A DNA stretch of 64,000 nt from Paraflavitalea soli (GTDB lineage Bacteria > Bacteroidota > Bacteroidia > Chitinophagales > Chitinophagaceae), in NCBI RefSeq assembly GCF_003555545.1, contig NZ_CP032157.1, positions 1,554,546 through 1,618,545 on the forward strand, written 5' to 3'. The notes below the pieces were generated by a model that worked only from the letters and a program-made list of their open reading frames with translations, made no database searches and was not told where the DNA came from. Within the stretch, counting starts at the first letter, position 1. Each line of letters starts with the position of its first letter. The translations under genes were made by a program, and so were the position numbers. Positions 2-54,157 of this stretch are shown piece after piece.

Positions 2-1933
2 AAAGGCGTGCATGAACAGGAGCTGAACTATACCCATTATTCAAGGGAGCTTTCGTTGGACAAAGCCATCGCTGCCTGCTCTTACCAGGTAGGAGGGGTG
101 ACGTATAAAAGAGAATACTTCACCAGCTTTGGGGATGATGTGGGGGTTGTGCGGATCACGGCCAGCAAGCCAGGTATGATCAACCTCAGTGTGGGCATAT
201 CCCGGGAAGAAAAGGGACATGTAAGTGTGAGCAACAAGACCCTGGACATGTATGGCCAACTGGAGAATGGTACAGATGGAAAGGGCATGGAGTACCTGGC
301 CAAAGTAGCGCTGCAGGTAAAAGAGGGTAGCCTTCACGCGGAGAACAACCAGCTCATCGTGGAAAATGCATCTGAAGTGATCCTGTTCTTTTCTGCCAGG
401 ACGAGTTATAAGGACAATGCTTTCAGGGATCATGCCCGGCAGTTGTTGACCAAAGCGATGACCATTCCTTTTGCTGCACAAAAGAAAAAACACCTCACCA
501 ATTATCAAAAGCTCTTCGGACGCCAGCAAGTGTACCTCGGGGCCGGAGGATCAGATAGCCTGACTACCGATAAACGGCTGGAACATTTCTACAACGCTGC
601 CACGCCCGATAACCAGCTTACCGTACTGTTTTACCAATTCAGCCGGTACCTGTCTATTGCCAGCACCCGTGTAGGATTATTGCCGCCCAACTTACAGGGT
701 TTGTGGGCACACCAGATCCACACCCCCTGGAATGGAGATTACCACCTCGATGTGAATGTACAGATGAACCATTGGGGTGTAGAGCCAGGCAACCTGTCGG
801 AGCTGAACCTGCCCCTGGCAGCCCTGGTGAGCAGTTTGGTACCCCATGGCCAGCGTACTGCCAAGGCCTATTACAATGCAGATGGCTGGATAGCGCACGT
901 GATCACCAACCCCTGGATGTTTACCGAACCCGGCGAAAGCGCTTCCTGGGGTGTATCCAAGTCAGGCACCGGATGGTTGTGCAATAACCTGTGGGAGCAT
1001 TACCAGTTTTCCCGCGACAAGAACTACTTACAGAAAATATATCCTGTACTGAAGGGATCGGCTCAGTTCTATGCGGCCATCCTCGTTAAAGAACCGAAAA
1101 CAGGATGGCTGGTGACATCACCTTCCTCATCACCTGAGAACCATTTCTACCTGCCTGATGGCAGTGGCAGGCATGCCGCCATCTGCATGGGAGCTACCAT
1201 CGATAACCAGATCATCCGCGAGTTATTCAACAATGTGATCACTGCTTCGGAAGTATTGGGTATTGATGGCATATTCAGGAATGGGCTGAAGGAAAAGCTG
1301 GCACAGATACCACCTCCGGGGCGTATTGCTGCCGATGGCAGGCTGATGGAGTGGCTGGAAGAATACAAGGAGACCGAAGTAGAGCACCGCCATATATCGC
1401 ACCTGTATGGCCTGTATCCTGCCAACCTGATCACTCCTTCACAAACACCTGACCTGGCAGAAGCCTGTAAAAAATCGTTGAATGTGCGGGGAGATGATGG
1501 ACCCAGCTGGTCCATCGCTTACAAGCAATTGTTCTGGGCAAGGCTGCATGATGGCAACCGGGCTTATAAACTGTTCCGGGAGATCATGAAGCCCACCCTG
1601 AAGACGAATATCAACTATGGCGCAGGCGGCGGCGTATATCCCAACCTGCTATCCGCCGGTCCGCCCTTCCAGATCGACGGCAATTTTGGCGCCGGCGCCG
1701 GCATTGCTGAAATGTTGATCCAGAGTCATGAAGGGTTTATTAATTTTATTCCCGCGATCCCCGATGCCTGGAAGGCCGAAGGAGTGGTAAAAGGCATGAA
1801 GGCCCGGGGTAATATTACTGTTGATTTTGCCTGGAAGAATGGCACGGTAACGAACTATAAGATCACTTCTCCGCAACAACAAAAAGTGAAAGTGATGCTC
1901 AATGGAAAACTGATAACAGTAACAACGAAATAA
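2..1933 (+). CDS. GH95 alpha-L-fucosidase, C-terminal part (5' end outside window)
   Basis: The frame is open to the left edge of the window, so the N-terminus is missing. The visible ~643 residues match the glycoside hydrolase family 95 fold: the end of the N-terminal beta-sandwich (SYQVGGVTYKREYFTSFGDD), then the (alpha/alpha)6 catalytic barrel with WNGDYHLDVNVQMNHW, TSPSSSPENHF near residue 370, HRHISHLYGLYPANLI and QIDGNFGAGAGIAEML. In GH95 the asparagines of the NVQMN segment and acidic residues in the later motifs do inverting hydrolysis of terminal alpha-1,2-fucose; some members prefer alpha-L-galactose. It lies 134 nt ahead of a GH36 alpha-galactosidase on the same strand, which suggests joint trimming of fucosylated/galactosylated plant glycans. 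Family is certain; substrate is inferred. A signal peptide cannot be judged. Confidence 0.93.
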   Translation, partial: KGVHEQELNYTHYSRELSLDKAIAACSYQVGGVTYKREYFTSFGDDVGVVRITASKPGMINLSVGISREEKGHVSVSNKTLDMYGQLENGTDGKGMEYLAKVALQVKEGSLHAENNQLIVENASEVILFFSARTSYKDNAFRDHARQLLTKAMTIPFAAQKKKHLTNYQKLFGRQQVYLGAGGSDSLTTDKRLEHFYNAATPDNQLTVLFYQFSRYLSIASTRVGLLPPNLQGLWAHQIHTPWNGDYHLDVNVQMNHWGVEPGNLSELNLPLAALVSSLVPHGQRTAKAYYNADGWIAHVITNPWMFTEPGESASWGVSKSGTGWLCNNLWEHYQFSRDKNYLQKIYPVLKGSAQFYAAILVKEPKTGWLVTSPSSSPENHFYLPDGSGRHAAICMGATIDNQIIRELFNNVITASEVLGIDGIFRNGLKEKLAQIPPPGRIAADGRLMEWLEEYKETEVEHRHISHLYGLYPANLITPSQTPDLAEACKKSLNVRGDDGPSWSIAYKQLFWARLHDGNRAYKLFREIMKPTLKTNINYGAGGGVYPNLLSAGPPFQIDGNFGAGAGIAEMLIQSHEGFINFIPAIPDAWKAEGVVKGMKARGNITVDFAWKNGTVTNYKITSPQQQKVKVMLNGKLITVTTK

Positions 1934-1936
1934 CGA

Positions 1937-1961
1937 TGTCAGCCTGAGCCTGTCGAAGGCG
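1937..1961. repeat. Dispersed intergenic repeat (GTCAGCCTGAGCCTGTCGAAGG type)
   Basis: Three bases after the GH95 stop lies TGTCAGCCTGAGCCTGTCG followed by AAGGCG. This sequence type recurs between genes in many Bacteroidota genomes (recognition from memory). No second copy was noticed in this window. Confidence 0.5.
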
Positions 1962-1966
1962 TCTTA

Positions 1967-1999
1967 AGGGTGGGTCGCCCTTGAAGGGCGGCTCACCCT
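1967..1999. terminator. Long hairpin after the GH95 gene
   Basis: Arms at 1967-1981 and 1985-1999 pair over 15 positions with two mismatches around a TGA loop. There is no good T-run, so it may be a repeat-type hairpin that stabilises mRNA ends rather than a classical terminator. Confidence 0.55.
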
Positions 2000-2067
2000 G
2001 ATCTAAAAAGCTTTTAAATAAACAAGTACATACTTAACATACAACTTATCATCTGCAACCACGTACC

Positions 2068-4266
2068 ATGAAAAGACTGAGCGCAATTGGATGGATGGCC
2101 ACGGTAACAGTTTTATCTTTTGCAAGTCCTAAGGCACAGGCACAGCACACTATTATCCCTATCGAAACAAAAAACAATGCCCTTGTATTCCAAACAGATG
2201 CCAACCGGAATGTGGGCATTGTTTATATGGGACCCCGGCTCTCCGACAAACAGGAGTATGGCCAGGTAGCGGCCATGTATAAGCAAGGCGCCGATTATAC
2301 CGGCGTAAACAATGCAGCGTATGCTACAGCCGGTAGTAGGAACCTGTTTGAGCCCGCCATCGCTGTTACGCATGCAGATGGCAACAATTCCCTCGACCTG
2401 CAATATGTGCGGCATGAAACTAAAAAGCTGGACGACAATACCTCCCTGCTCACCATTTACCTGAAGGACCCGGCCTACAATTTTGAGGTGACCCTTTATT
2501 ACAAGTCCTGGTTCAATGAAGATGTGACCGAACAGTGGAGTGAGATCAGGCACAACGAAAAAGGCAATGTGCTGCTGAACAAGTTTGCCTCGGCTGGTTT
2601 GCACCTGAAAGCGGGCAGCTTTTGGCTTAACCAATTCCATGGCGATTGGGCCCGCGAAATGCAGCCCGAAGAAGCGCGCCTCACCCATGGCATCAAAACA
2701 TTGGATTCGAAACTGGGTACCCGCACCAACCTGTTTCAGCCCCCCGTATTTATGGTGTCACTTGATCAGCCAGCTACAGAAGAGGAGGGTACTGTTTTAT
2801 ACGGTGCCCTTGAATGGAGTGGTAACTTCCGCATAGACCTGGAATTGGATAACCAGGACAACCTGCGCATCATTGCCGGTATCAATAATTATGCATCACC
2901 CTATACCTTAAAGCCGGGAGAAGTATTCACCACGCCGGCCTTCTTATCTGTGCTGTCTACCCATGGTAAAGGGGAAGCCAGCCGCAAATTGCAGCAATGG
3001 GCACGCAACTACAAGATACTGGATGGAAAAGGTACCCGGCTTACCTTGTTGAACAACTGGGAAGCTACCTACTTTGATTTCAATGAGGCGAAGCTGAAAG
3101 AGTTGTTGAAGGATACAAAAAAACTGGGTGTGGACCTCTTTCTCCTGGACGATGGCTGGTTTGCCAACAAGTACCCGCGCAACAATGACAATGCAGGACT
3201 GGGAGATTGGCAGGAAAACAAAAAGAAATTGCCCAATGGCATAGCCTCCCTGGTGAAGGAAGCACAGGCGAATGGGGTGAAGTTTGGCATATGGATAGAA
3301 CCTGAAATGGTAAATCCTAAAAGTGAATTGTATGAGCAGCATCCCGATTGGATAGTTAAACAGCCCAACCGGTCTGAGCATTATTTCAGGAATCAACTGG
3401 TGCTCGATCTCAGCAATCCTGCCGTACAGGACCATGTATTCAATGTGGTGGATGGACTTTTTACAAAGAATCCGGCACTGGCTTATATCAAATGGGATTG
3501 CAATGCAGTTATCTACAATGCTTATTCTGCCAAGCTGGGCAACCAATCGCATTTTTATATACAGTATGTACAGGGGTTGTACGCTGTACTGAAAAAGATC
3601 AGGGCCAAATATCCCACCGTGCCCATGATGTTGTGCTCCGGTGGTGGTGGCCGGGTGGATTATGCCGCCCTGCAATATTTTACAGAGTTCTGGCCCAGCG
3701 ATAATACCGATCCGCTGGAACGTATTTATATGCAATGGGAGTATTCTTATTTCTATCCGGCTATCAGCATGTCGAACCATGTTACCGACTGGGGTAAGCA
3801 GCCCATTAAGTTCCGTACCGATGTGGCCATGATGGGCAAGCTGGGTTTTGATATTGTAGTGAGTGATCTGAAGGAAAAAGACCTTCGCTTTTGCCAGGAT
3901 GCATTGACTACTTACAATACAGTAAAACCCATTATCTGGCAGGGCGATCAATACCGCCTGCAAGGTCCCCGGGAAAATGCCGTAGCTGCTGTCATGTATG
4001 TGAATGCAGCAAAAACAAACGGCATTGTATTCAATTATCTTGTCAGCAACCGCTATGATGCGGGCAGCCTGCTGCCCATACGCCTGAAAGGACTTGATCC
4101 CCAAAAGCGGTATACGATCAGAGAGCTGAACGTTTACCCGGGCGTTACTTCCACCATCGACAGCAGCAAAGTATATACAGGTGAGTTCCTACTGAAAGTA
4201 GGCTTTAACCCGGAGGTAAAATCCGGCAGGAACAGTGTGGTGCTGGAAGTAAAAGCGGTGAATTGA
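2068..4266 (+). CDS. GH36 alpha-galactosidase, exported
   Basis: 732 residues, the usual length for the long GH36 alpha-galactosidases. An N-terminal signal peptide (MKRLSAIGWMATVTVLS...AQAQ) sends it to the periplasm or surface. Order: N-terminal beta-supersandwich (~30-320), TIM barrel (~330-640), C-terminal beta-sandwich. Motifs: LLDDGWF (~360), GIWIEPEMVNP (~410), YIKWDCN with the expected nucleophile Asp477, CSGGGGRVDY (~520) and FWPSDNTDP (541-549) carrying the acid/base aspartate. The family does retaining hydrolysis of alpha-1,6-galactosides such as raffinose, melibiose and galactomannan branches. It follows the GH95 gene but a hairpin separates them, so a shared transcript is uncertain. 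Convergent with the next gene. Confidence 0.95.
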   Translation: MKRLSAIGWMATVTVLSFASPKAQAQHTIIPIETKNNALVFQTDANRNVGIVYMGPRLSDKQEYGQVAAMYKQGADYTGVNNAAYATAGSRNLFEPAIAVTHADGNNSLDLQYVRHETKKLDDNTSLLTIYLKDPAYNFEVTLYYKSWFNEDVTEQWSEIRHNEKGNVLLNKFASAGLHLKAGSFWLNQFHGDWAREMQPEEARLTHGIKTLDSKLGTRTNLFQPPVFMVSLDQPATEEEGTVLYGALEWSGNFRIDLELDNQDNLRIIAGINNYASPYTLKPGEVFTTPAFLSVLSTHGKGEASRKLQQWARNYKILDGKGTRLTLLNNWEATYFDFNEAKLKELLKDTKKLGVDLFLLDDGWFANKYPRNNDNAGLGDWQENKKKLPNGIASLVKEAQANGVKFGIWIEPEMVNPKSELYEQHPDWIVKQPNRSEHYFRNQLVLDLSNPAVQDHVFNVVDGLFTKNPALAYIKWDCNAVIYNAYSAKLGNQSHFYIQYVQGLYAVLKKIRAKYPTVPMMLCSGGGGRVDYAALQYFTEFWPSDNTDPLERIYMQWEYSYFYPAISMSNHVTDWGKQPIKFRTDVAMMGKLGFDIVVSDLKEKDLRFCQDALTTYNTVKPIIWQGDQYRLQGPRENAVAAVMYVNAAKTNGIVFNYLVSNRYDAGSLLPIRLKGLDPQKRYTIRELNVYPGVTSTIDSSKVYTGEFLLKVGFNPEVKSGRNSVVLEVKAVN

Positions 4267-45614: not shown

Positions 45615-45757
45615 GCTTCGACAGCAGATTTCTCACTCCGCTGCGCTGCGTTCGAAATGACAAAGAAAGGGAGGCGTCGTTCGAAATGACAAGGAAGAGG
45701 GATACGTTTCACACTTTGGTGTCATTTCGACCGCAGGGAGAAATCTGTTATCGAAGC
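45615..45757. repeat. Dispersed inverted-repeat element (TTCGAAATGAC type)
   Basis: Left arm GCTTCGACAGCAGATTTCTC (45615-45634) and the inverse right arm with GAGAAATCTG and TCGAAGC (45738-45757) enclose two direct copies of TTCGAAATGACA (45651, 45680) and the inverse GTCATTTCGA (45721). This motif family is widespread between genes in this phylum (from memory). The element touches the stop codon of the AraC gene. Confidence 0.7.
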
Positions 45758-46686
45758 TAAATACTCAAAAACTCATGTTTATATTCTGCCGGGGTCTTTA
45801 ACACCACCTCCTTAAACTGCTTGTTGAAATTGGACAGGGTATTAAAGCCGCATTCATAACAAATATGGGCAATGGGATCGTCTGTTTCTGTCAATAGTTT
45901 ACAGGCATGTTTAATACGTATCTCGGAAACAAAACGGGAGAAGGGTTTATTGTTCTTGATGGTGAAATAGCGGCTAAAGGAAGTGGGGGTCATATGCAGC
46001 AGCTCAGCCAGTTCTTCGAGTGCTATCTTGCGCCGGAAGTGTTTTAATACATAATCATATACAATATTGAGCCGGTCGGTCTCATGCTGGTCGTACTCAT
46101 CCTCATAAGGCCGGGAAGAAATATACCGGAACGCCTTGGTGCCTGCCATCAGCTCCAGTATACGCAACAGCTGTACCACACTTTGAATACCCTGCAGGTG
46201 TACCAGCTCCTGCATCATACGAATGATGTCTGTGCGGGGGGCGCCCTCAAATTCCAGTCCGCGCATGGCCCGGGTGAATAGTTTTTTCAGCACGGTCATC
46301 TCTTCTTTTTCCATGATGTGTTCGCCCAGGAAATGTTCATTGAAATAGATCACGATGCCATCGGTGCGCAGGGTGCTTTTCTTATTGAAATAAGCCTCAT
46401 CACTGCGCCACAGGTGGGGCAGGTGCGGACCGGTGAAGATCAGTTCGCCCGGTTTGAAGGCCTTGATGCTGTCGCCGATAAAACGGGTGCCGGTACCTTC
46501 CAGCACTACAAAAAGCTGGTATTCTGAATGCGCATGCCATACGGGATCAAAATACTTTTCCTGCAGGCGGCGGATCACAAATATATGGGAGAGGGGTATT
46601 TCTGATTTGTGCAGGGCTGCTTTCACAATAAGGCGTATTGGTATATAGTGTTGGTAGTTTTGTCTCTGATTGTCGAAATTAGGCAT
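45757..46686 (-). CDS. AraC-family regulator (cupin-sensor type)
   Basis: 309 residues. N-terminal cupin domain (~30-120: HAHSEYQLFVVLEGTGTRFIGDSIKAFKPGELIFTGPHLPHLW) typical of sugar-responsive AraC proteins of Bacteroidota; C-terminal double HTH (~205-305: ELAELLHMTPTSFSRYFTIKN and ICYECGFNTLSNFNKQFKEVVLKTPAEYK). Divergent from the ThuA-propeller operon, 104 nt away, so it probably activates it in response to a sugar. Confidence 0.93.
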   Translation of the reverse strand: MPNFDNQRQNYQHYIPIRLIVKAALHKSEIPLSHIFVIRRLQEKYFDPVWHAHSEYQLFVVLEGTGTRFIGDSIKAFKPGELIFTGPHLPHLWRSDEAYFNKKSTLRTDGIVIYFNEHFLGEHIMEKEEMTVLKKLFTRAMRGLEFEGAPRTDIIRMMQELVHLQGIQSVVQLLRILELMAGTKAFRYISSRPYEDEYDQHETDRLNIVYDYVLKHFRRKIALEELAELLHMTPTSFSRYFTIKNNKPFSRFVSEIRIKHACKLLTETDDPIAHICYECGFNTLSNFNKQFKEVVLKTPAEYKHEFLSI

Positions 46687-46790: not shown

Positions 46791-49700
46791 ATGTGCCGGA
46801 AAATTAACCTCCTTTATTGTATACCACTCTTGTGTTCTTTCCTGCTGATCAGTGCCGATACGGTAAGAAAGGCTGCCACACCCAGGCGCCTGGAAATTCT
46901 CTTACTTGGCCACAAGAGCAAACACCATGATTCTGAAAAACTGGCGGATATCCTCACCAAAGAATACTTTAAAGCCGGTATTAATATATCCTACAGCACC
47001 AATCCCAATGACCTCAATGAGACCGTGCTGAACCAATATGATGGCCTGATCGTATATGCCAACTACGATACCATCAGCAAAGCGCAGGAAAAAGCCCTGC
47101 TCAACTTTGTACGCAGCGGTAAAGGCTTTATCCCCCTGCACTCCGCTTCTTTTTGTTTCCGCAACTCACCCGAAGTAGTGGAGATGATCGGCGGACAATT
47201 CAAGAGCCATAAGTATGACTCCTTTCCCTCCGTGATCGTCAAGCCCGAACACCCGGTAATGAAAGGTGTAGCTCCTTTCGTAACACGGGATGAAACCTAT
47301 GTGCACGACAAGATCAGCAAGAATATAGAAGTGATCTCCGAAAGGGTGGAAGGCGATCACCATGAGCCCTATACCTGGGTGCGGCCCTATGGCAATGGCC
47401 GGGTATTTTATACAGCTTATGGTCATGATGAAGTAACCTTCAATAATCCCGGTTTTTTAACATTGGTGAAGAATGGCATACTCTGGGCTGTGAGTGATGA
47501 AGCGCGGGCCAGCCTGGCAGCTTACAAACTGGCTGATCCCACTTATTATGATGGCCCGGTGCCCAATTATGAAAAACGTGATCCCGCGCCGAAAGTTCAG
47601 GCGTCCTTAACGCCGGAGCAATCCATGTCGCTGATACAGGTGCCGGTGGGTTTTGGCCTGCAGCTGTTTGCCGCGGAGCCTGATGTGGTGAATCCTATTT
47701 ACATGAATTGGGATGAGCGCGGACGCCTGTGGGTGATCGAGACGGTGGATTATCCCAACGAGATCAAAGACGACGATAAAGGCGATGACCGCATTAAGAT
47801 ACTGGAAGATACGGATGGAGATGGGAAGGCCGATAAGTTCACCATCTTTGCCGATAAGCTGAATATACCTACCAGTTTCACCTTTGTGAACGGCGGCATT
47901 GTCGTGAGCGAGGCGCCTTCTTTCCTGTTCCTGAAAGATACCAATGGAGATAACAAAGCTGATATCCGGCAACCACTTTTAACAGGCTGGGGCAAAAGTG
48001 ATACCCATGCCCAGGCATCCAACCTGCGCTATGGCCTCGACAATATGATCTGGGGTGTGGTAGGTTATTCCGGGTTTTACAATGGCAAGAAAGGAAAAGA
48101 CTCCCTGCGCTTCGGTCAGGGGGTATACCGCTTTGCTCCGGATGGCAAGAACCTCGAATACCTTTCTTCCACCAGCAACAATACCTGGGGACTGGGTTTC
48201 TCAGAAGAGTTTGATGTATTTATTTCTACCGCCAACAATACGCACAGCGGTTTCCTGGGCATGCCCAAACGTTACTTCGACAAAGCAAATATCCGGGAGA
48301 GCGGTGTGGAGAAGATCGATGCACACTATGCCATACACGTAGCTACCAAAAACCTGCGCCAGGTGGATGTACATGGCGGCTTTACGGCTGCTGCCGGTCA
48401 TAGTCTGTACACGGCCCGTAATTTCCCCCAGGAATATTGGAACAAAGTGGCTTTTGTAACAGAACCTACCGGGCGTTTGATCCATAAACATGTATTGCAA
48501 CCCGCAGGTTCCGGCTTTAAAGAAGAAGGCGATGGCTGGAATATGCTGGTGAGTGCGGATGAATGGGCGGCGCCCATCCAGGCGGAAGTAGGGCCCGACG
48601 GGGCGCTGTGGGTAACAGACTGGTACGATTTCATTATTCAGCACAACCCCACGCCTTCGGTTGACCGCGGCGGCTACAAGGCAGAGACGGGCCAGGGTAA
48701 TGCATATGTGAATCCGTTGCGCGATCATGAGCGTGGACGTATTTACCGGATCTACAATAAGAGCAACAACCAGAAGAACAATACACAGCTCGATAAGAAA
48801 GATGTAGCAGGATTGGTAACTGCCTTGTCCAACGACAATATGTTCTGGCGTACTACTGCACAAAGATTGCTGGTAGAAAGCGGCAACAAAACGGTGCTGC
48901 CAGCTCTCTACAAACTGGTGCAGGACCAGCAACTGGATGGCGCCGGTATCAATGCGCCGGCCGTGCATGCGCTGTGGACGATGAAAGGCCTGAAAGTGCT
49001 GGATGGCACGAATGCCGCAGCCCTGGCAGTAGCCACGAAAGCCCTGCATCATCCCGCGGCTGGTGTGCGCAAGGCAGCCATCGAAGTGCTGCCGAAAACA
49101 CCCGCTACCTTCCTGGCTATGCAGCAGGCAGGTGTTTTTGAGGACAAAGACATGCGGGTACGGCTGGCAGGGGTGTTGGCCACCACAGACATGAAAACCT
49201 CAGCTGCCATTGGCAATGTATTGGTGGGTATGGCAGAAAAAGAAGAGAATGTTTCCGATACCTGGTTGCGCCATGCGCTCACCATTGCCAGTAAACTGAA
49301 CGAGGAGACCTTCCGCGCAGCCTTCCGGAAAAGAGGATTGAATGAAAATCCCGCCCTGATTGAAGCTTCTATTGCACAGCGCCTGGCCTTTGGATCAAGG
49401 CTTACCACCATTCCGCTGAGAAGAGGTTTTGGCAGGCCGCAACAGGGCGATGCACTGGAGCCTGAAGTAGCCAACAAAGAGATCCTGCTGGCAGGAGATA
49501 TAGAACGCATGACGGCCCGTCCGGGTGCGCCAGCGGCCCAAAGCAATGCACCGGCTGGTTTTAGCGGTATGGTGGCGGCTCAAGGTAATGGTGCCAATGG
49601 TTATGGCCTGTATATGCTTAACAATAAAATGTATTTCCAGGTAAACCAGAACGGCAAAGTATTCCAGGTCGTAACGCCCAATGAACTGCCCGCTAAGTTC

Positions 49701-50345
49701 TCTTTTAAAGCAGGTCTTCAAAAGAACGGTGCCCTGCGTTTGTTGATCAACGATAAAGAAGTGGCCGCGGCCAAAGCACCCGGCTTGTTTAAGAAAGAGT
49801 TGGACCTACCCCTCAGAATAGGATTTGATAACCGCAAAGGGGATGAGCGGATCACGGAGTACCCGGACTCCGCTTTCTTCCTGCGGGCAAATCTGACCAA
49901 CGCGAAACTGGAAACCCTGGCTGGTACGGGTGCAGCCACCGCCGCTCCTGTTACCGCCGGCAAAATAGACCGTACGATTGTGATCAAAGTGTTGAAAGAT
50001 GTGATGAAATATGATCAACAGCTCATCACGGTAAAAGCAGGCAGTACGGTTAAGATCGTGTTGCAGAACCCTGACTTTATGCAGCACAACCTGCTTATCC
50101 TTAAACCGGCGACTACGGATAAGGTAGGCGCTGCGGCAGATAAACTGGCCATGGACCCCAATGGCGCCAAACTGCAGTATGTGCCGAAGATGCCGGAAGT
50201 GTTACTGTCAACACCGCTGATCAATCCCGGAGGGAAATATACGGTGACCTTTAAAGTGCCGGATGCAGCAGGTGACTATCCATATATCTGTACATTCCCG
50301 GGCCATTGGCGCATTATGAATGGCGTATTGCGCGTGGTAAAATAA
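46791..50345 (+). CDS. ThuA - membrane-dehydrogenase-like propeller - HEAT - cupredoxin multidomain protein
   Basis: 1184 residues from ATG 46791 (signal MCRKINLLYCIPLLCSFLLIS). In order: ThuA-like domain (~28-240, HSASFCFRNSPEV, FYTAYGHDE); a beta-propeller of the glucose/sorbosone-dehydrogenase or DUF7133 sort (~275-640) with Ca-site-like DTDGDGKAD and DTNGDNKAD; a HEAT-like helical part (~650-860); a beta-sandwich of LamG type (~915-1060); and a C-terminal cupredoxin (~1075-1184) with type-1 copper ligands His1099 (MQHN), Cys1167, His1172 and Met1176 (CTFPGHWRIM). Relatives usually end in a CxxCH cytochrome domain; none is present here. Probably a periplasmic sugar-oxidising or sugar-binding protein that passes electrons through copper. 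First gene of an operon with an MFS transporter, an isomerase and a Gfo/Idh/MocA protein. Confidence 0.88.
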   Translation: MCRKINLLYCIPLLCSFLLISADTVRKAATPRRLEILLLGHKSKHHDSEKLADILTKEYFKAGINISYSTNPNDLNETVLNQYDGLIVYANYDTISKAQEKALLNFVRSGKGFIPLHSASFCFRNSPEVVEMIGGQFKSHKYDSFPSVIVKPEHPVMKGVAPFVTRDETYVHDKISKNIEVISERVEGDHHEPYTWVRPYGNGRVFYTAYGHDEVTFNNPGFLTLVKNGILWAVSDEARASLAAYKLADPTYYDGPVPNYEKRDPAPKVQASLTPEQSMSLIQVPVGFGLQLFAAEPDVVNPIYMNWDERGRLWVIETVDYPNEIKDDDKGDDRIKILEDTDGDGKADKFTIFADKLNIPTSFTFVNGGIVVSEAPSFLFLKDTNGDNKADIRQPLLTGWGKSDTHAQASNLRYGLDNMIWGVVGYSGFYNGKKGKDSLRFGQGVYRFAPDGKNLEYLSSTSNNTWGLGFSEEFDVFISTANNTHSGFLGMPKRYFDKANIRESGVEKIDAHYAIHVATKNLRQVDVHGGFTAAAGHSLYTARNFPQEYWNKVAFVTEPTGRLIHKHVLQPAGSGFKEEGDGWNMLVSADEWAAPIQAEVGPDGALWVTDWYDFIIQHNPTPSVDRGGYKAETGQGNAYVNPLRDHERGRIYRIYNKSNNQKNNTQLDKKDVAGLVTALSNDNMFWRTTAQRLLVESGNKTVLPALYKLVQDQQLDGAGINAPAVHALWTMKGLKVLDGTNAAALAVATKALHHPAAGVRKAAIEVLPKTPATFLAMQQAGVFEDKDMRVRLAGVLATTDMKTSAAIGNVLVGMAEKEENVSDTWLRHALTIASKLNEETFRAAFRKRGLNENPALIEASIAQRLAFGSRLTTIPLRRGFGRPQQGDALEPEVANKEILLAGDIERMTARPGAPAAQSNAPAGFSGMVAAQGNGANGYGLYMLNNKMYFQVNQNGKVFQVVTPNELPAKFSFKAGLQKNGALRLLINDKEVAAAKAPGLFKKELDLPLRIGFDNRKGDERITEYPDSAFFLRANLTNAKLETLAGTGAATAAPVTAGKIDRTIVIKVLKDVMKYDQQLITVKAGSTVKIVLQNPDFMQHNLLILKPATTDKVGAAADKLAMDPNGAKLQYVPKMPEVLLSTPLINPGGKYTVTFKVPDAAGDYPYICTFPGHWRIMNGVLRVVK

Positions 50346-50368: not shown

Positions 50369-51919
50369 ATGCCAACTAACGATTCGCCAGGCAGCACACC
50401 TCACCGTGCAGACATGAAATTGTTCTATGCCTGTTTTGTGGCGCTGGTCACCACTTCCTTTGGTTTCATATTAAGGGCCATCTCGCTGCCGGAGTGGGGT
50501 ACCACTTTTAACCTTACGCAAACACAGCTGGGTGAAATAGCAGGTGTGGGCCTATGGCCTTTTGCGATCAGCATTGTATTGTTTAGCCTGATCATTGATA
50601 AGATCGGTTATAAGACGGCGATGATCTTTGCTTTTCTCTGTCATGTTACCTCGGCCATACTCACCATATTTGCTACCGGCTATTGGATGTTGTACATCGG
50701 CACTTTCATTGTGGCGCTGGGCAATGGTACGGTAGAAGCGGTGGTGAACCCGGTGGTAGCGACCATGTTTCCGCGGCAGAAAACAAAATGGCTCAATATA
50801 CTGCATGCAGCCTGGCCGGGCGGCCTGGTATTGGGCGGCATCATCGCCTTACTGATGGGACCCGGTACAGCCTGGGAATATAAAATAGCGCTGATCTTAT
50901 TGCCTACACTGGCTTATGGGGTGATGATGCTGGCCCGTAAGTTCCCGCTCAATGAACGGGTGCAGGCAGGTGTATCTTATAAGGAAATGCTGCAGGAAGT
51001 AGGGGCCATTGGCGCACTGATCATTGTGGCGCTGATCGTATTCCAGCTGGGAGCGGTATTTGCTTGGCCCACGGCGCTCAATATAACACTCATATTGGTG
51101 GTGACGATACTCTTCGGATGGTATACCCGCAGTCTGGGTCAGCCGCTGTTCATCATTTTATTGCTGATCATGATCCCGCTGGCTACTACAGAACTGGGTA
51201 CGGATAGCTGGATCACGGACCTGATGACGCCAGCCATGACGGCCATCGGGCTGCAGGCAGGGTGGGTGCTGGTGTATACTTCGGCCATCATGTTTGTGCT
51301 ACGTTTCTTTGCCGGTCCCATTGTGCATAAAGTATCACCGCTGGGACTGCTGGCGATCTGTTCGGCCATTGCGGCCGGCGGATTGTACATGCTGTCCTTC
51401 TCCAACGGGGTGATGATCCTGGTGGCAGCTACGGTGTATGGCCTGGGCAAAACCTTTTTCTGGCCCACCATGCTGGGCCTGGTAGCGGAGCGCTTTCCGA
51501 AAGGCGGCGCACTTACGCTCAACATTACGGGTGGATTGGGTATGATCGCAGCCGGTGTGATCGGCGCGGGTATCCTTGGTTTTATCCAGGATAAATCGGT
51601 CGACACAAAGATCAAGGCATATGACCAGACGCATCAAACAAGCATTCATAGCACCTATGTAACGGAAAACAAAACCAGTTTCTTTGGTGATTACCAGGCG
51701 CTGGACCAATCCAAACTGGCGCAGGCCAATGCGCAGGAGCTGGAAACAGTGACTGCCATCCGGGATGGCGCTAAAAAAGACGCGCTCCGGTACATTGTGG
51801 CTTTCCCCTTGCTCATGTTGGTGTGTTATGGATTGTTGATCTTGTATTTCCGGTCACGCGGGGGATACAAGGCGGTGATGTTGCAGGAGGAGGCGGTGAA
51901 TGCCAGCCATGAGCTTTGA
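50369..51919 (+). CDS. MFS transporter
   Basis: 516 residues with 12 predicted membrane helices; the motif between helices 2 and 3 reads LIIDKIGYKTAM, and a long loop (~410-470, DKSVDTKIKAYDQTHQ...) precedes the last helix. The start region MPTNDSPGSTPHRADMKLFYACF fits sugar-type MFS permeases of Bacteroidota. It begins 23 nt after the ThuA-cupredoxin gene, so it probably moves the (oxidised) sugar made by that protein into the cell. Substrate inferred from context only. Confidence 0.92.
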   Translation: MPTNDSPGSTPHRADMKLFYACFVALVTTSFGFILRAISLPEWGTTFNLTQTQLGEIAGVGLWPFAISIVLFSLIIDKIGYKTAMIFAFLCHVTSAILTIFATGYWMLYIGTFIVALGNGTVEAVVNPVVATMFPRQKTKWLNILHAAWPGGLVLGGIIALLMGPGTAWEYKIALILLPTLAYGVMMLARKFPLNERVQAGVSYKEMLQEVGAIGALIIVALIVFQLGAVFAWPTALNITLILVVTILFGWYTRSLGQPLFIILLLIMIPLATTELGTDSWITDLMTPAMTAIGLQAGWVLVYTSAIMFVLRFFAGPIVHKVSPLGLLAICSAIAAGGLYMLSFSNGVMILVAATVYGLGKTFFWPTMLGLVAERFPKGGALTLNITGGLGMIAAGVIGAGILGFIQDKSVDTKIKAYDQTHQTSIHSTYVTENKTSFFGDYQALDQSKLAQANAQELETVTAIRDGAKKDALRYIVAFPLLMLVCYGLLILYFRSRGGYKAVMLQEEAVNASHEL

Positions 51920-51984
51920 GCTGCGAGCTGCGAGTCCCTTTTCGTCGCAAACGGCTCGTTGCTCGAAGCTGGCAGCTCGCAGCT
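51919..51984. repeat. Tandem GAGCTGC units with inverted copy after the MFS gene
   Basis: GAGCTGC, GAGCTGC, GAG starts at 51918, on the MFS stop codon. AGCTGCGAGCTG (51919-51930) and CAGCTCGCAGCT (51973-51984) are perfect 12-bp inverse copies, allowing a 42-nt loop hairpin. Confidence 0.75.
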
Positions 51985-52032
51985 TCTTCTTAAAATAGTG
52001 TACCTCCCAATGAAAAATATTAATCTTAGATA

Positions 52033-52896
52033 ATGGCTTTAGACATTAAGTACGGCGTTAGTACCTGGCTATGGACCTCGCCGTTTACCACGGCTTCTAT
52101 ACCGGTATTGTTTCCAAAGATTGCCGCTATGGGATTTGAGGTGGTGGAGATTGCAGTAGAAGATCCTTCGCTCATTGATATACAGGTGGTGAAAAAGGCC
52201 ATGACAGAATATCAACTGCAGGTGAATATCTGCGGGGCTTTTGGCCCTTCGCGCGACCTTACGCATGAAGACCCGGCGGTGCACAAGAACTGCCTGGCGT
52301 ATATAGAAACCTGTCTCGATTACTGCGCAGCGGTAGGCACGGGTTTCTTTGGTGGACCTATGTATTCAGCCGTAGGTAAGGCACGTATGGTATCGCCTGA
52401 CCAGCGTAAGATAGACTGGGAGCGGGCGGTGACCAACCTGCGCAAAGTGTGTGAACTGGCGGCTGCCCGGGGATTACAGATCGCCCTGGAACCCTTGAAC
52501 CGCTTTGAATCGGACCTGGTGAATACAGCGGCTGATGTATTGCGATTGATCAGGGATATTAATCACCCTGCCGCCAAAGTAATGCTGGATGGATTTCATA
52601 TGAGTATTGAAGAAAAGGATGTGGCACAGGCCATCATTGCATCGGGCAAGGACCTGGTCCATTTGCAGGTGTCAGAAAACTACCGGGGTACACCGGGTAC
52701 GGGGCAAACGCCCTGGGCTTCCTACAAGCAAGGGTTGGAAGCCATCGATTATGCCGGGGTAGTAACCATCGAAAGTTTTACGCCGGATAACAAGGAACTG
52801 GCGGGCGCGGTATGCTTCTGGCATCCTATGGCGGAAAGCCAGGATGGATTTGCCACGGAAGGGTTAAGGTTCCTGAAAAGCTGGGCGAGGGAATAA
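52033..52896 (+). CDS. Sugar phosphate isomerase/epimerase-like TIM-barrel protein
   Basis: 287 residues, AP-endonuclease-2-like TIM barrel. Seen: YGVSTWLWTSPFT (strand 1), MGFEVVEIAVEDPSL, ICGAFGPSRDLTHEDP, GLQIALEPLNRFESDLVNTAADVLRLI with the metal-binding Glu, VMLDGFHMSIEEKDV (Asp and His metal ligands), HLQVSENYRGTPGTGQTPW and VVTIESFTPDN. The family epimerises or isomerises sugars such as D-tagatose/psicose or keto-sugars with Mn or Co. It sits between MFS and Gfo/Idh/MocA genes of the same direction. Likely acts on the imported sugar. Confidence 0.92.
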   Translation: MALDIKYGVSTWLWTSPFTTASIPVLFPKIAAMGFEVVEIAVEDPSLIDIQVVKKAMTEYQLQVNICGAFGPSRDLTHEDPAVHKNCLAYIETCLDYCAAVGTGFFGGPMYSAVGKARMVSPDQRKIDWERAVTNLRKVCELAAARGLQIALEPLNRFESDLVNTAADVLRLIRDINHPAAKVMLDGFHMSIEEKDVAQAIIASGKDLVHLQVSENYRGTPGTGQTPWASYKQGLEAIDYAGVVTIESFTPDNKELAGAVCFWHPMAESQDGFATEGLRFLKSWARE

Positions 52897-52897
52897 A

Positions 52898-52973
52898 GTC
52901 GGGAAGACGGAAAGTCCGTAAGTCCGGAAGAAAAACGGCAACGTTTCTAATGTGTTACTACAGACTTTCGGAC
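52898..52973. repeat. Tandem array of 8-nt units (GTCCGNAA) with inverted copy
   Basis: GTCGGGAA, GACGGAAA, GTCCGTAA and GTCCGGAA follow one another from 52898 to 52929, starting 2 nt after the isomerase stop. GACTTTCGGAC (52963-52973) is an inverse copy of 52914-52924 with one mismatch. Confidence 0.75.
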
Positions 52974-53026
52974 CAAGTGATGCAAGCTTCGATCTGATTA
53001 CGAAAACAAAAAAAAATATTACTGAT

Positions 53027-54157
53027 ATGGCTGGAAAGAAGATCAATGTCGCTATTGTAGGACTAGGGTTTGGCGCGGAGTTCATTCCCATTTATCAACG
53101 TCATCCGCATGCAAACATGTCTGCCATCTGTCAGCGCAATGCTGCCAAACTAAACGAAGTGGGCGACGCTTTTGGCGTGGAAAAGCGGTATACGGATTAT
53201 GATGAACTGCTAAAGGACCCCGCCATTGATGCGGTGCATATCAATACACCGATTCCGGACCATGCAGCCCAATCGATCAAGGCCTTAAAGGCGGGCAAGC
53301 ATGTGGCCTGTACGGTACCCATGGCCACCACGGTGGAGGAGTGCCGGCAAATTGTAGAACTGGTAAAAGCCACGGGCCTCACCTATATGATGATGGAAAC
53401 GGTGGTATATGCCCGTGAGTTTCTGTTTATGAAGGAACTATATGACAAAGGCGAACTGGGCAAGATCCAATTCCTGAAAGCCAGTCACCAGCAGGATATG
53501 GATGGATGGCCCAATTACTGGCCGGGATTGCCGCCCATGCATTATGCCACACATTGTGTAGGGCCTGTGCTGGCCCTCACGCGTGGAGAAGCGGAGTATG
53601 TATCCTGCTTTGGATCGGGCGCCATCCGGGAGGAATTGCAGGCTTATTACAACTCGCCTTTTGCAGTGGAGAGTACGCATATCAAATTCCGGAATGCTGA
53701 CCTCAGTGCGCATATCTATCGCTCCTTGTTTGATACGGCCCGTCAATACCGGGAAAGTTTTGAAGTGTACGGTTCCCAAAAATCTGTAGAGTGGCCTTTG
53801 ATCGAAGGCAGGCCGCTGGTTGTACATACGGCCAAAAGGCCGGAGCCGGAGATACCGGAAGAAGTACAATCGCCGGATTATGCACACCTGCTGCCGGAGC
53901 CTATACAGCGTTTTACAACGGGGGGCGTGTATGATGAGGATGATCACCAGCACCTCTCTTTTACGCAAGGGGCAGGGCATGGCGGATCACACCCGCACCT
54001 GGTGCATGAATTTGTAAGCGCCCTGGTGGATAAGCGATCGCCTTATCCCAATGCTGTACAGTCGGCCAATATTACCTGTGTAGGGATATTGGCGCATGAA
54101 TCGGCCATGCAGGGAGGCAAGCAGGTATACCTGCCTGATTTCACCTTTGAGCAGTAA
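53027..54157 (+). CDS. Gfo/Idh/MocA-family oxidoreductase with altered EKP motif
   Basis: 376 residues from ATG 53027 (MAGKKINVAIVGLGFGAEF); the open frame further upstream has no family match. Rossmann motif VAIVGLGFGAEF at 8-19; HINTPIPDHAAQSIKALKAGKHV; the C-terminal alpha/beta domain has HYATHCVGPVLALTRGE with the conserved histidine region. At the usual EKP site the sequence is C95-T96-V97-P98, so the lysine that normally contacts NAD(H) and substrate is missing. The partner ThuB in other bacteria makes 3-keto-sugars with ThuA. Last gene of the operon; a terminator follows. Confidence 0.92.
   Translation: MAGKKINVAIVGLGFGAEFIPIYQRHPHANMSAICQRNAAKLNEVGDAFGVEKRYTDYDELLKDPAIDAVHINTPIPDHAAQSIKALKAGKHVACTVPMATTVEECRQIVELVKATGLTYMMMETVVYAREFLFMKELYDKGELGKIQFLKASHQQDMDGWPNYWPGLPPMHYATHCVGPVLALTRGEAEYVSCFGSGAIREELQAYYNSPFAVESTHIKFRNADLSAHIYRSLFDTARQYRESFEVYGSQKSVEWPLIEGRPLVVHTAKRPEPEIPEEVQSPDYAHLLPEPIQRFTTGGVYDEDDHQHLSFTQGAGHGGSHPHLVHEFVSALVDKRSPYPNAVQSANITCVGILAHESAMQGGKQVYLPDFTFEQ

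Follow-up and report, generated by a model that had tools for sequence, protein, structure and literature searches.

A blue-copper domain where relatives carry haem: a ThuA-propeller protein of Paraflavitalea soli resembling sugar dehydrogenases

A multidomain protein with a copper end

The window analysed here is a 64,000-nucleotide stretch of the Paraflavitalea soli genome (contig NZ_CP032157.1, positions 1,554,546 to 1,618,545), and our subject is the open reading frame at 46791-50345 on its plus strand. Counted from the ATG at 46791, it encodes 1184 residues; an alternative TTG start lies 9 bases upstream and would give 1187. Judged by eye alone, the N-terminus carries a signal-like segment, and the protein is probably exported. 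Its parts are as follows.

46791..50345, plus strand: ThuA - DUF7133 propeller - HEAT - laminin-G-like - blue-copper protein, 1184 residues
46911..47489, plus strand: ThuA domain, residues 41-233 (PF06283, E 8.5e-38, 131.1 bits against a cut-off of 33.4)
47613..48761, plus strand: six-bladed propeller, DUF7133/TIGR02604, residues 275-657 (Pfam DUF7133, E 2.8e-120)
49032..49235, plus strand: HEAT-like repeats, residues 748-815 (PF13646, E 6.4e-4, 20.4 bits, below the cut-off of 27.7)
49572..49844, plus strand: laminin-G/ConA-like domain, residues 928-1018 (PF13385, E 1.5e-4, 22.4 bits, below the cut-off of 27.6)
49983..50336, plus strand: type-1 blue-copper domain, residues 1065-1182 (Pfam Copper-bind, PF00127; ligands H1099, C1167, H1172 and M1176)

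The protein also scores 258.2, against a cut-off of 122.2, with TIGR02604, named 'PVC-type heme-binding CxxCH protein' in NCBIfam. An AlphaFold2 model of the full-length protein (mean predicted local distance difference test score 82.4, predicted template-modelling score 0.79) shows a row of helices at residues 672-870, the HEAT-like region, and laminin G structures (1qu0) are among its Foldseek matches; the same list includes laccases and unrelated large proteins, which we left unused. Six peptide patterns from the protein found no matching stretch in viral contigs.

A first-pass annotation of this DNA had placed the four type-1 copper ligands at His1099, Cys1167, His1172 and Met1176, and all four are there. 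Residues 1065-1182 match PF00127 with an E value of 1.9e-11 (44.7 bits, cut-off 21.2), and among solved structures its sequence comes nearest to the auracyanins and azurins (2aan, E 1.3e-12). The predicted cupredoxin fold matches the auracyanins 6kol and 2aan with template-modelling scores of 0.87 and 0.86 by target length, and also 1qhq; the domain thus aligns best within the plastocyanin/azurin families and not to a non-copper fold. Its ligand spacing, C-x4-H-x3-M, is that of azurin. Homologues having the copper domain keep its ligands, H1099 in 85/85 rows and C1167, H1172 and M1176 in 84/85 each, the one exception being a sequence that ends at a contig end. The Pfam match, the solved relatives and the ligand conservation rule out a chance or mis-called copper domain, and sequence and predicted structure together confirm the C-terminus as a type-1 blue-copper domain of the azurin/auracyanin type with a complete ligand set. 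Auracyanin and azurin share its fold, four ligands and spacing, but here the copper unit is one domain of a large multidomain protein, which fails the azurin equivalog TIGR02695 (41.1 against 105.1). It is the only PF00127 match in the whole P. soli genome. A motif search bore out the further claim that CxxCH occurs nowhere in the 1184 residues, and the Pfam scan of the protein gave no multicopper-oxidase domain over the cut-off (PF07731, 12.2 bits against 20.4).

Copper and haem carriers among the relatives

Relatives were sought in several ways. One scan of species genomes gave 69 loci; 29 of 147 genomes of the family had a match at E<=1e-30; 20 of 145 genomes matched from the phylum of L100, a Verrucomicrobia contig; and a search of 296 genomes of the phylum with the copper domain alone matched 85, many of them short stand-alone azurins. 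The 198 frames with a propeller were reduced to 136 non-redundant ones covering at least 270 positions. This set is skewed towards copper, since it was seeded by the 1184-residue protein itself. CxxCH was scored by motif and located behind the propeller, and L100 was left out of the training alignment for the count.

Behind these 136 propellers we found a copper domain in 85 and CxxCH in 38, that is, one or the other in 123; of the rest, 7 are truncated at contig ends and 6 lack both. No propeller (0/136) has both, and the two are mutually exclusive in this position. A protein that seemed to carry both (L100, L190 and L213, which are one protein) proved to be an artefact of having L100 in the training alignment. 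The first-pass annotation expected a CxxCH at the end of most such proteins, an expectation that the propeller family overall bears out: a sample seeded solely with the Pfam family (16 places in 7 of 118 Bacteroidota genomes, E<=1e-40) has 11 CxxCH, 4 copper and 1 split form. It does not hold for the ThuA-bearing propellers, because the 88 rows of the seeded set with ThuA in the same protein comprise 81 with copper, only 1 with CxxCH, 1 split form and 5 cut by contig ends. One of the cut rows, L014, had been taken for a ThuA-propeller without copper, but its contig stops inside the gene; L107 has a copper-bearing piece at another contig end, with a flank near-identical to that of L014. ThuA lies behind the copper domain in L108, L165, L166, L180, L183 and L184, giving the order propeller-copper-ThuA, and L164 and L168, shorter at 659-720 residues, share this copper end and match DUF7133 weakly. 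The copper end also occurs in L170, L171 and L178, which are DUF7133 proteins of about 950-1000 residues (L171 and L178 with a GDSL lipase domain as well), and there is a terminal copper motif in frames of about 1160 residues that the propeller profile leaves unmatched (L225:3280-6771 and L226:2151-5624, from the phylum of L100).

By sequence comparison, the copper domain takes the position held by a cytochrome c domain in related propellers. The TIGR02604/DUF7133 haem proteins share the propeller, followed by HEAT and then a redox domain, whereas the 1184-residue protein has blue copper rather than cytochrome c, an N-terminal ThuA domain and other active-site letters. L100 encodes a propeller that shares 50% identity over residues 252-841 with that of the 1184-residue protein; behind it comes cytochrome c, and ThuA is absent. 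We built a careful tree from 50 chosen propellers, including 24 copper rows and the long branches L208 and L220. A single origin of all copper forms is rejected (24 rows as one clade, approximately unbiased test, p-AU 4e-41), because the copper-bearing L178 (GDSL-propeller-copper) and L224 sit among haem rows. A clade confined to the 22 main copper rows is compatible with the data (p 0.148). L100 falls inside the main copper rows in this tree, with weak support, and outside them in another. With L178 and L224 so placed, the phylogeny implies at least two copper/haem exchanges, in one direction or the other. In its active-site letters the haem-bearing L100 agrees with the 1184-residue protein, and L224 and L178, which carry copper, agree with the haem clades; carrier type, as far as these alignments go, is independent of active-site type. 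This suggests that bacteria may be able to swap one built-in electron carrier for the other.

In one locus the copper domain is a separate protein. L221 has a ThuA-propeller frame (1140-4220, minus strand) without a copper domain, and an azurin gene (587-1102, minus strand; Copper-bind, E 5.1e-13) lies between it and a TIM-barrel gene. This azurin and the fused copper domain of L185 are 65% identical, against at most 40% for any other row, and the ThuA-propeller parts of the two loci are 64% identical over 947 residues; L221 and L185 are sisters in the tree. The copper domain, split in one and fused in the other, is therefore a partner that occurs either free or fused, which by these sequences fits the expectation for an electron carrier. 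Together with the natural copper/haem pairs behind the same propeller type, such fused and split sisters make carrier exchange directly testable.

Altogether, the 1184-residue protein is a genuine, conserved variation on an established plan, with blue copper replacing haem behind a ThuA-bearing, sugar-dehydrogenase-like propeller. We found no paper on this architecture in the literature searched. TIGR02604/DUF7133 proteins can be very numerous per genome, yet the same literature gave no paper containing 'DUF7133' or the family name 'PVC-type heme-binding CxxCH'. The genome of L100 (G433, Verrucomicrobia, 5.2 Mb) has 39 matched DUF7133 stretches in 34 frames.

The gene row around the copper-type gene

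The gene is followed by three others on the same strand and preceded by a divergent one.

45757..46686, minus strand: divergent AraC-type regulator (PF12833, E 5.2e-20), possibly the regulator of the operon
50369..51919, plus strand: MFS transporter (PF07690, E 3.7e-19), starting 23 bases past the stop codon of the 1184-residue gene
52033..52896, plus strand: TIM-barrel sugar isomerase/epimerase (PF01261, E 2.5e-39)
53027..54157, plus strand: Gfo/Idh/MocA oxidoreductase (PF01408, E 7.9e-26)

This row is conserved. In the 49 copper-type loci flanked by 4 kb or more on each side, same-strand partners include a Gfo/Idh gene in 48, a TIM-barrel gene in 41 and an MFS gene in 16; an AraC gene is present in 20, mostly on the opposite strand. 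The solved proteins nearest to the TIM barrel are the epimerase 7cj4 and D-psicose/D-tagatose 3-epimerases (ketose 3-epimerases), and it likewise matches the 3-keto-D-glucoside 4-epimerase 6wn6. For the Gfo/Idh protein they are glucose-fructose oxidoreductase and, next, DgpA. The row is indicative of an oxidative pathway for sugars in Bacteroidota, and no description of such a pathway with such a gene row was found there in the literature searched. An extra open reading frame with CxxCH occurs in 6/49 loci; three of these six (L092, L095 and L096) have a monohaem cytochrome c of 139-154 residues after the Gfo gene, checked against Pfam on the L095 copy (Cytochrom_C, E 2.9e-9).

Several smaller observations concern these genes. 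In alignment, the TIM barrel reads HxQVSEN where 7cj4 has histidine; 38 of 51 copies match the pattern, all 32 of them that were displayed have the glutamine, and it may change a metal ligand. In L091 (10474-11330) the TIM-barrel gene appears as two shorter reading frames of 134 and 171 residues, perhaps through a frameshift. Repeat-like, palindrome-like stretches were seen by eye between the operon genes at 51919-52010 and 52897-52975 of the window. A 52% identical relative of the small cytochrome c is encoded elsewhere in the P. soli genome (L264, 6.18 Mb), between genes for a TIM-barrel isomerase and a 3-keto-disaccharide hydrolase. In Dyadobacter loci (L064, L067, L083 and others) the copper-type gene follows SusC-size, SusD-size and DUF3823 genes, and may belong to a glycan-use locus; L067 also has a GH43 gene and a GH5-like gene downstream.

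Proposed sugar oxidation and the alternatives

The propeller has the fold of the pyrroloquinoline quinone (PQQ) sugar dehydrogenases and AA12 enzymes, which fill the best sixteen rows of VIA-align; below them, rows 17-50 hold ThuA proteins and propellers of other kinds. Profile comparison with GSDH also indicates homology (P 3.4e-11), a narrower propeller profile giving only P 9.6e-5 (probability 58, 71 columns), and PF07995 is absent from the Pfam matches of the protein at E<=1. A shared fold by itself shows no function. With the gene row and the carriers in view, we propose with moderate confidence that the protein is a sugar dehydrogenase-like enzyme, probably exported, with its own built-in electron exit via copper. 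The propeller (residues 275-657) would act outside the cytoplasm on a sugar or glycoside, whose oxidation would most likely give a keto sugar. The azurin/auracyanin-type copper centre at the C-terminus would pass the electrons singly to a small c-type cytochrome, from which a terminal oxidase would receive them. The MFS transporter would import the oxidised sugar, and the operon's TIM-barrel epimerase and Gfo/Idh enzyme would then handle it. The ThuA domain presumably has a role in this scheme as well.

We infer the keto-sugar chemistry because the operon partners are of the same kinds as those of two known systems. In Caulobacter, the partners of the lactose 3-dehydrogenase lacABC are a transporter, a reductase and a pair of epimerases (PMC9007349). 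The window operon shares with this system an oxidising enzyme that would work outside the cytoplasm, with transporter, epimerase and sugar reductase-like genes nearby, the genes matching by family only; the propeller-copper protein stands in the place of LacABC here. PMC10628242 describes an Agrobacterium glycoside dehydrogenase operon that also encodes a Gfo reductase and a pair of isomerase-like TIM barrels; in its pathway, oxidation is followed by elimination, hydration and finally reduction.

Several observations weigh against this proposal. In the profile alignment to GSDH (17% identity), N463, N464, W592 and A594 stand opposite R, N, R and R, which we take to be PQQ-contacting residues, so that the PQQ-binding arginines are aligned with N463, W592 and A594. 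Position 594 is G, A or S in 82/83 copper rows and Arg in 36/38 haem rows; the copper-type active site is, on this alignment, unlike the haem-type one. PqqC was not found in the P. soli genome by a search whose controls were equally silent, and the PqqE matches there are all below the cut-off. The Gfo partner reads CTVPMA, TVP for EKP, in 50/62 copies, the other 12 being unmatched by the pattern; C-EKP-MA is the usual Gfo/Idh motif, whose catalytic lysine is missing here, and glucose-fructose oxidoreductase shows CEKPMA in the alignment. The small cytochrome gene is nearby in only 3/49 loci, and no 3-keto-disaccharide hydrolase (PF06439/DUF1080), a point of difference from the LacABC systems, is among the ten window neighbours scanned, although one is encoded elsewhere in the genome. 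Finally, a haem-type relative, Lac161_ORF7 (TIGR02604-HEAT-cytochrome c), is reported in PMC5342196 as a lactose hydrolase with a Km of 1.8 mM, rather than as a dehydrogenase.

An alternative is that the propeller is instead a hydrolase, a lyase or a sugar-binding scaffold, with copper and haem serving another redox purpose and any keto-sugar chemistry left to the TIM barrel and Gfo protein alone. The PQQ arginines, partly kept in the haem types, are by alignment absent from the type of the 1184-residue protein, and both the missing PQQ synthesis (with its weak controls) and the reported lactose hydrolysis would suit such a propeller. However, a carrier behind 123/136 propellers is hard to explain if no electrons leave them, and the sixteen best fold matches are PQQ sugar dehydrogenases or AA12 enzymes, for what fold alone can tell. 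The Lac161 cosmid, according to PMC5342196, rescued S. meliloti and not E. coli, which could suit an oxidative route too. We consider this alternative unlikely, though one to be taken seriously.

As for the copper, electron transfer in the place of haem, one of two roles suggested by the first-pass annotation, is supported by the swapping of domains behind the same propeller, the split azurin form and the small cytochrome c in 3/49 loci, and is what we predict. A storage, chaperone or structural copper domain carrying no electrons is very improbable in view of the complete, conserved His-Cys-His-Met set with azurin spacing, the haem domain in the same place in related proteins and that same cytochrome. 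The other suggested role, copper-dependent sugar oxidation, found no support. A type-1 copper site has no open coordination position; the centre here is fully liganded, the propeller is the expected site of oxidation, the multicopper-oxidase match stays below its cut-off, and L221 keeps its copper domain in a separate protein. That the copper itself oxidises the sugar, which only the presence of both units in one protein favours, is barely credible.

Our proposal of a sugar dehydrogenase-like enzyme can be taken further, to a propeller-type sugar dehydrogenase that departs from the known use of PQQ and passes electrons directly to the covalently attached blue-copper domain; across Bacteroidota and Verrucomicrobia, haem and copper carriers would be interchangeable cassettes on a common catalytic chassis, whatever the active-site type. 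This is possible but rather doubtful. The protein differs from the PQQ sugar dehydrogenases (GSDH, AA12) in lacking, by alignment, the PQQ-contacting arginines and in having copper, not haem. An AA12 pyranose dehydrogenase has a fused cytochrome b domain (PMC4332668). Another related protein is encoded in P. soli itself: L259:2171-5587 (3.51 Mb; 1139 residues, ThuA-GSDH-PKD-cytochrome c) follows the same plan of ThuA, dehydrogenase propeller, beta domain and carrier, but with a GSDH-type propeller and haem, and is thus a haem counterpart of the 1184-residue plan in the same genome. At L260:1752-5179 (2.43 Mb), ThuA is a gene of its own (245 residues), and the gene immediately after it encodes a DUF7133-HEAT-cytochrome c protein in which CxxCH occurs twice.

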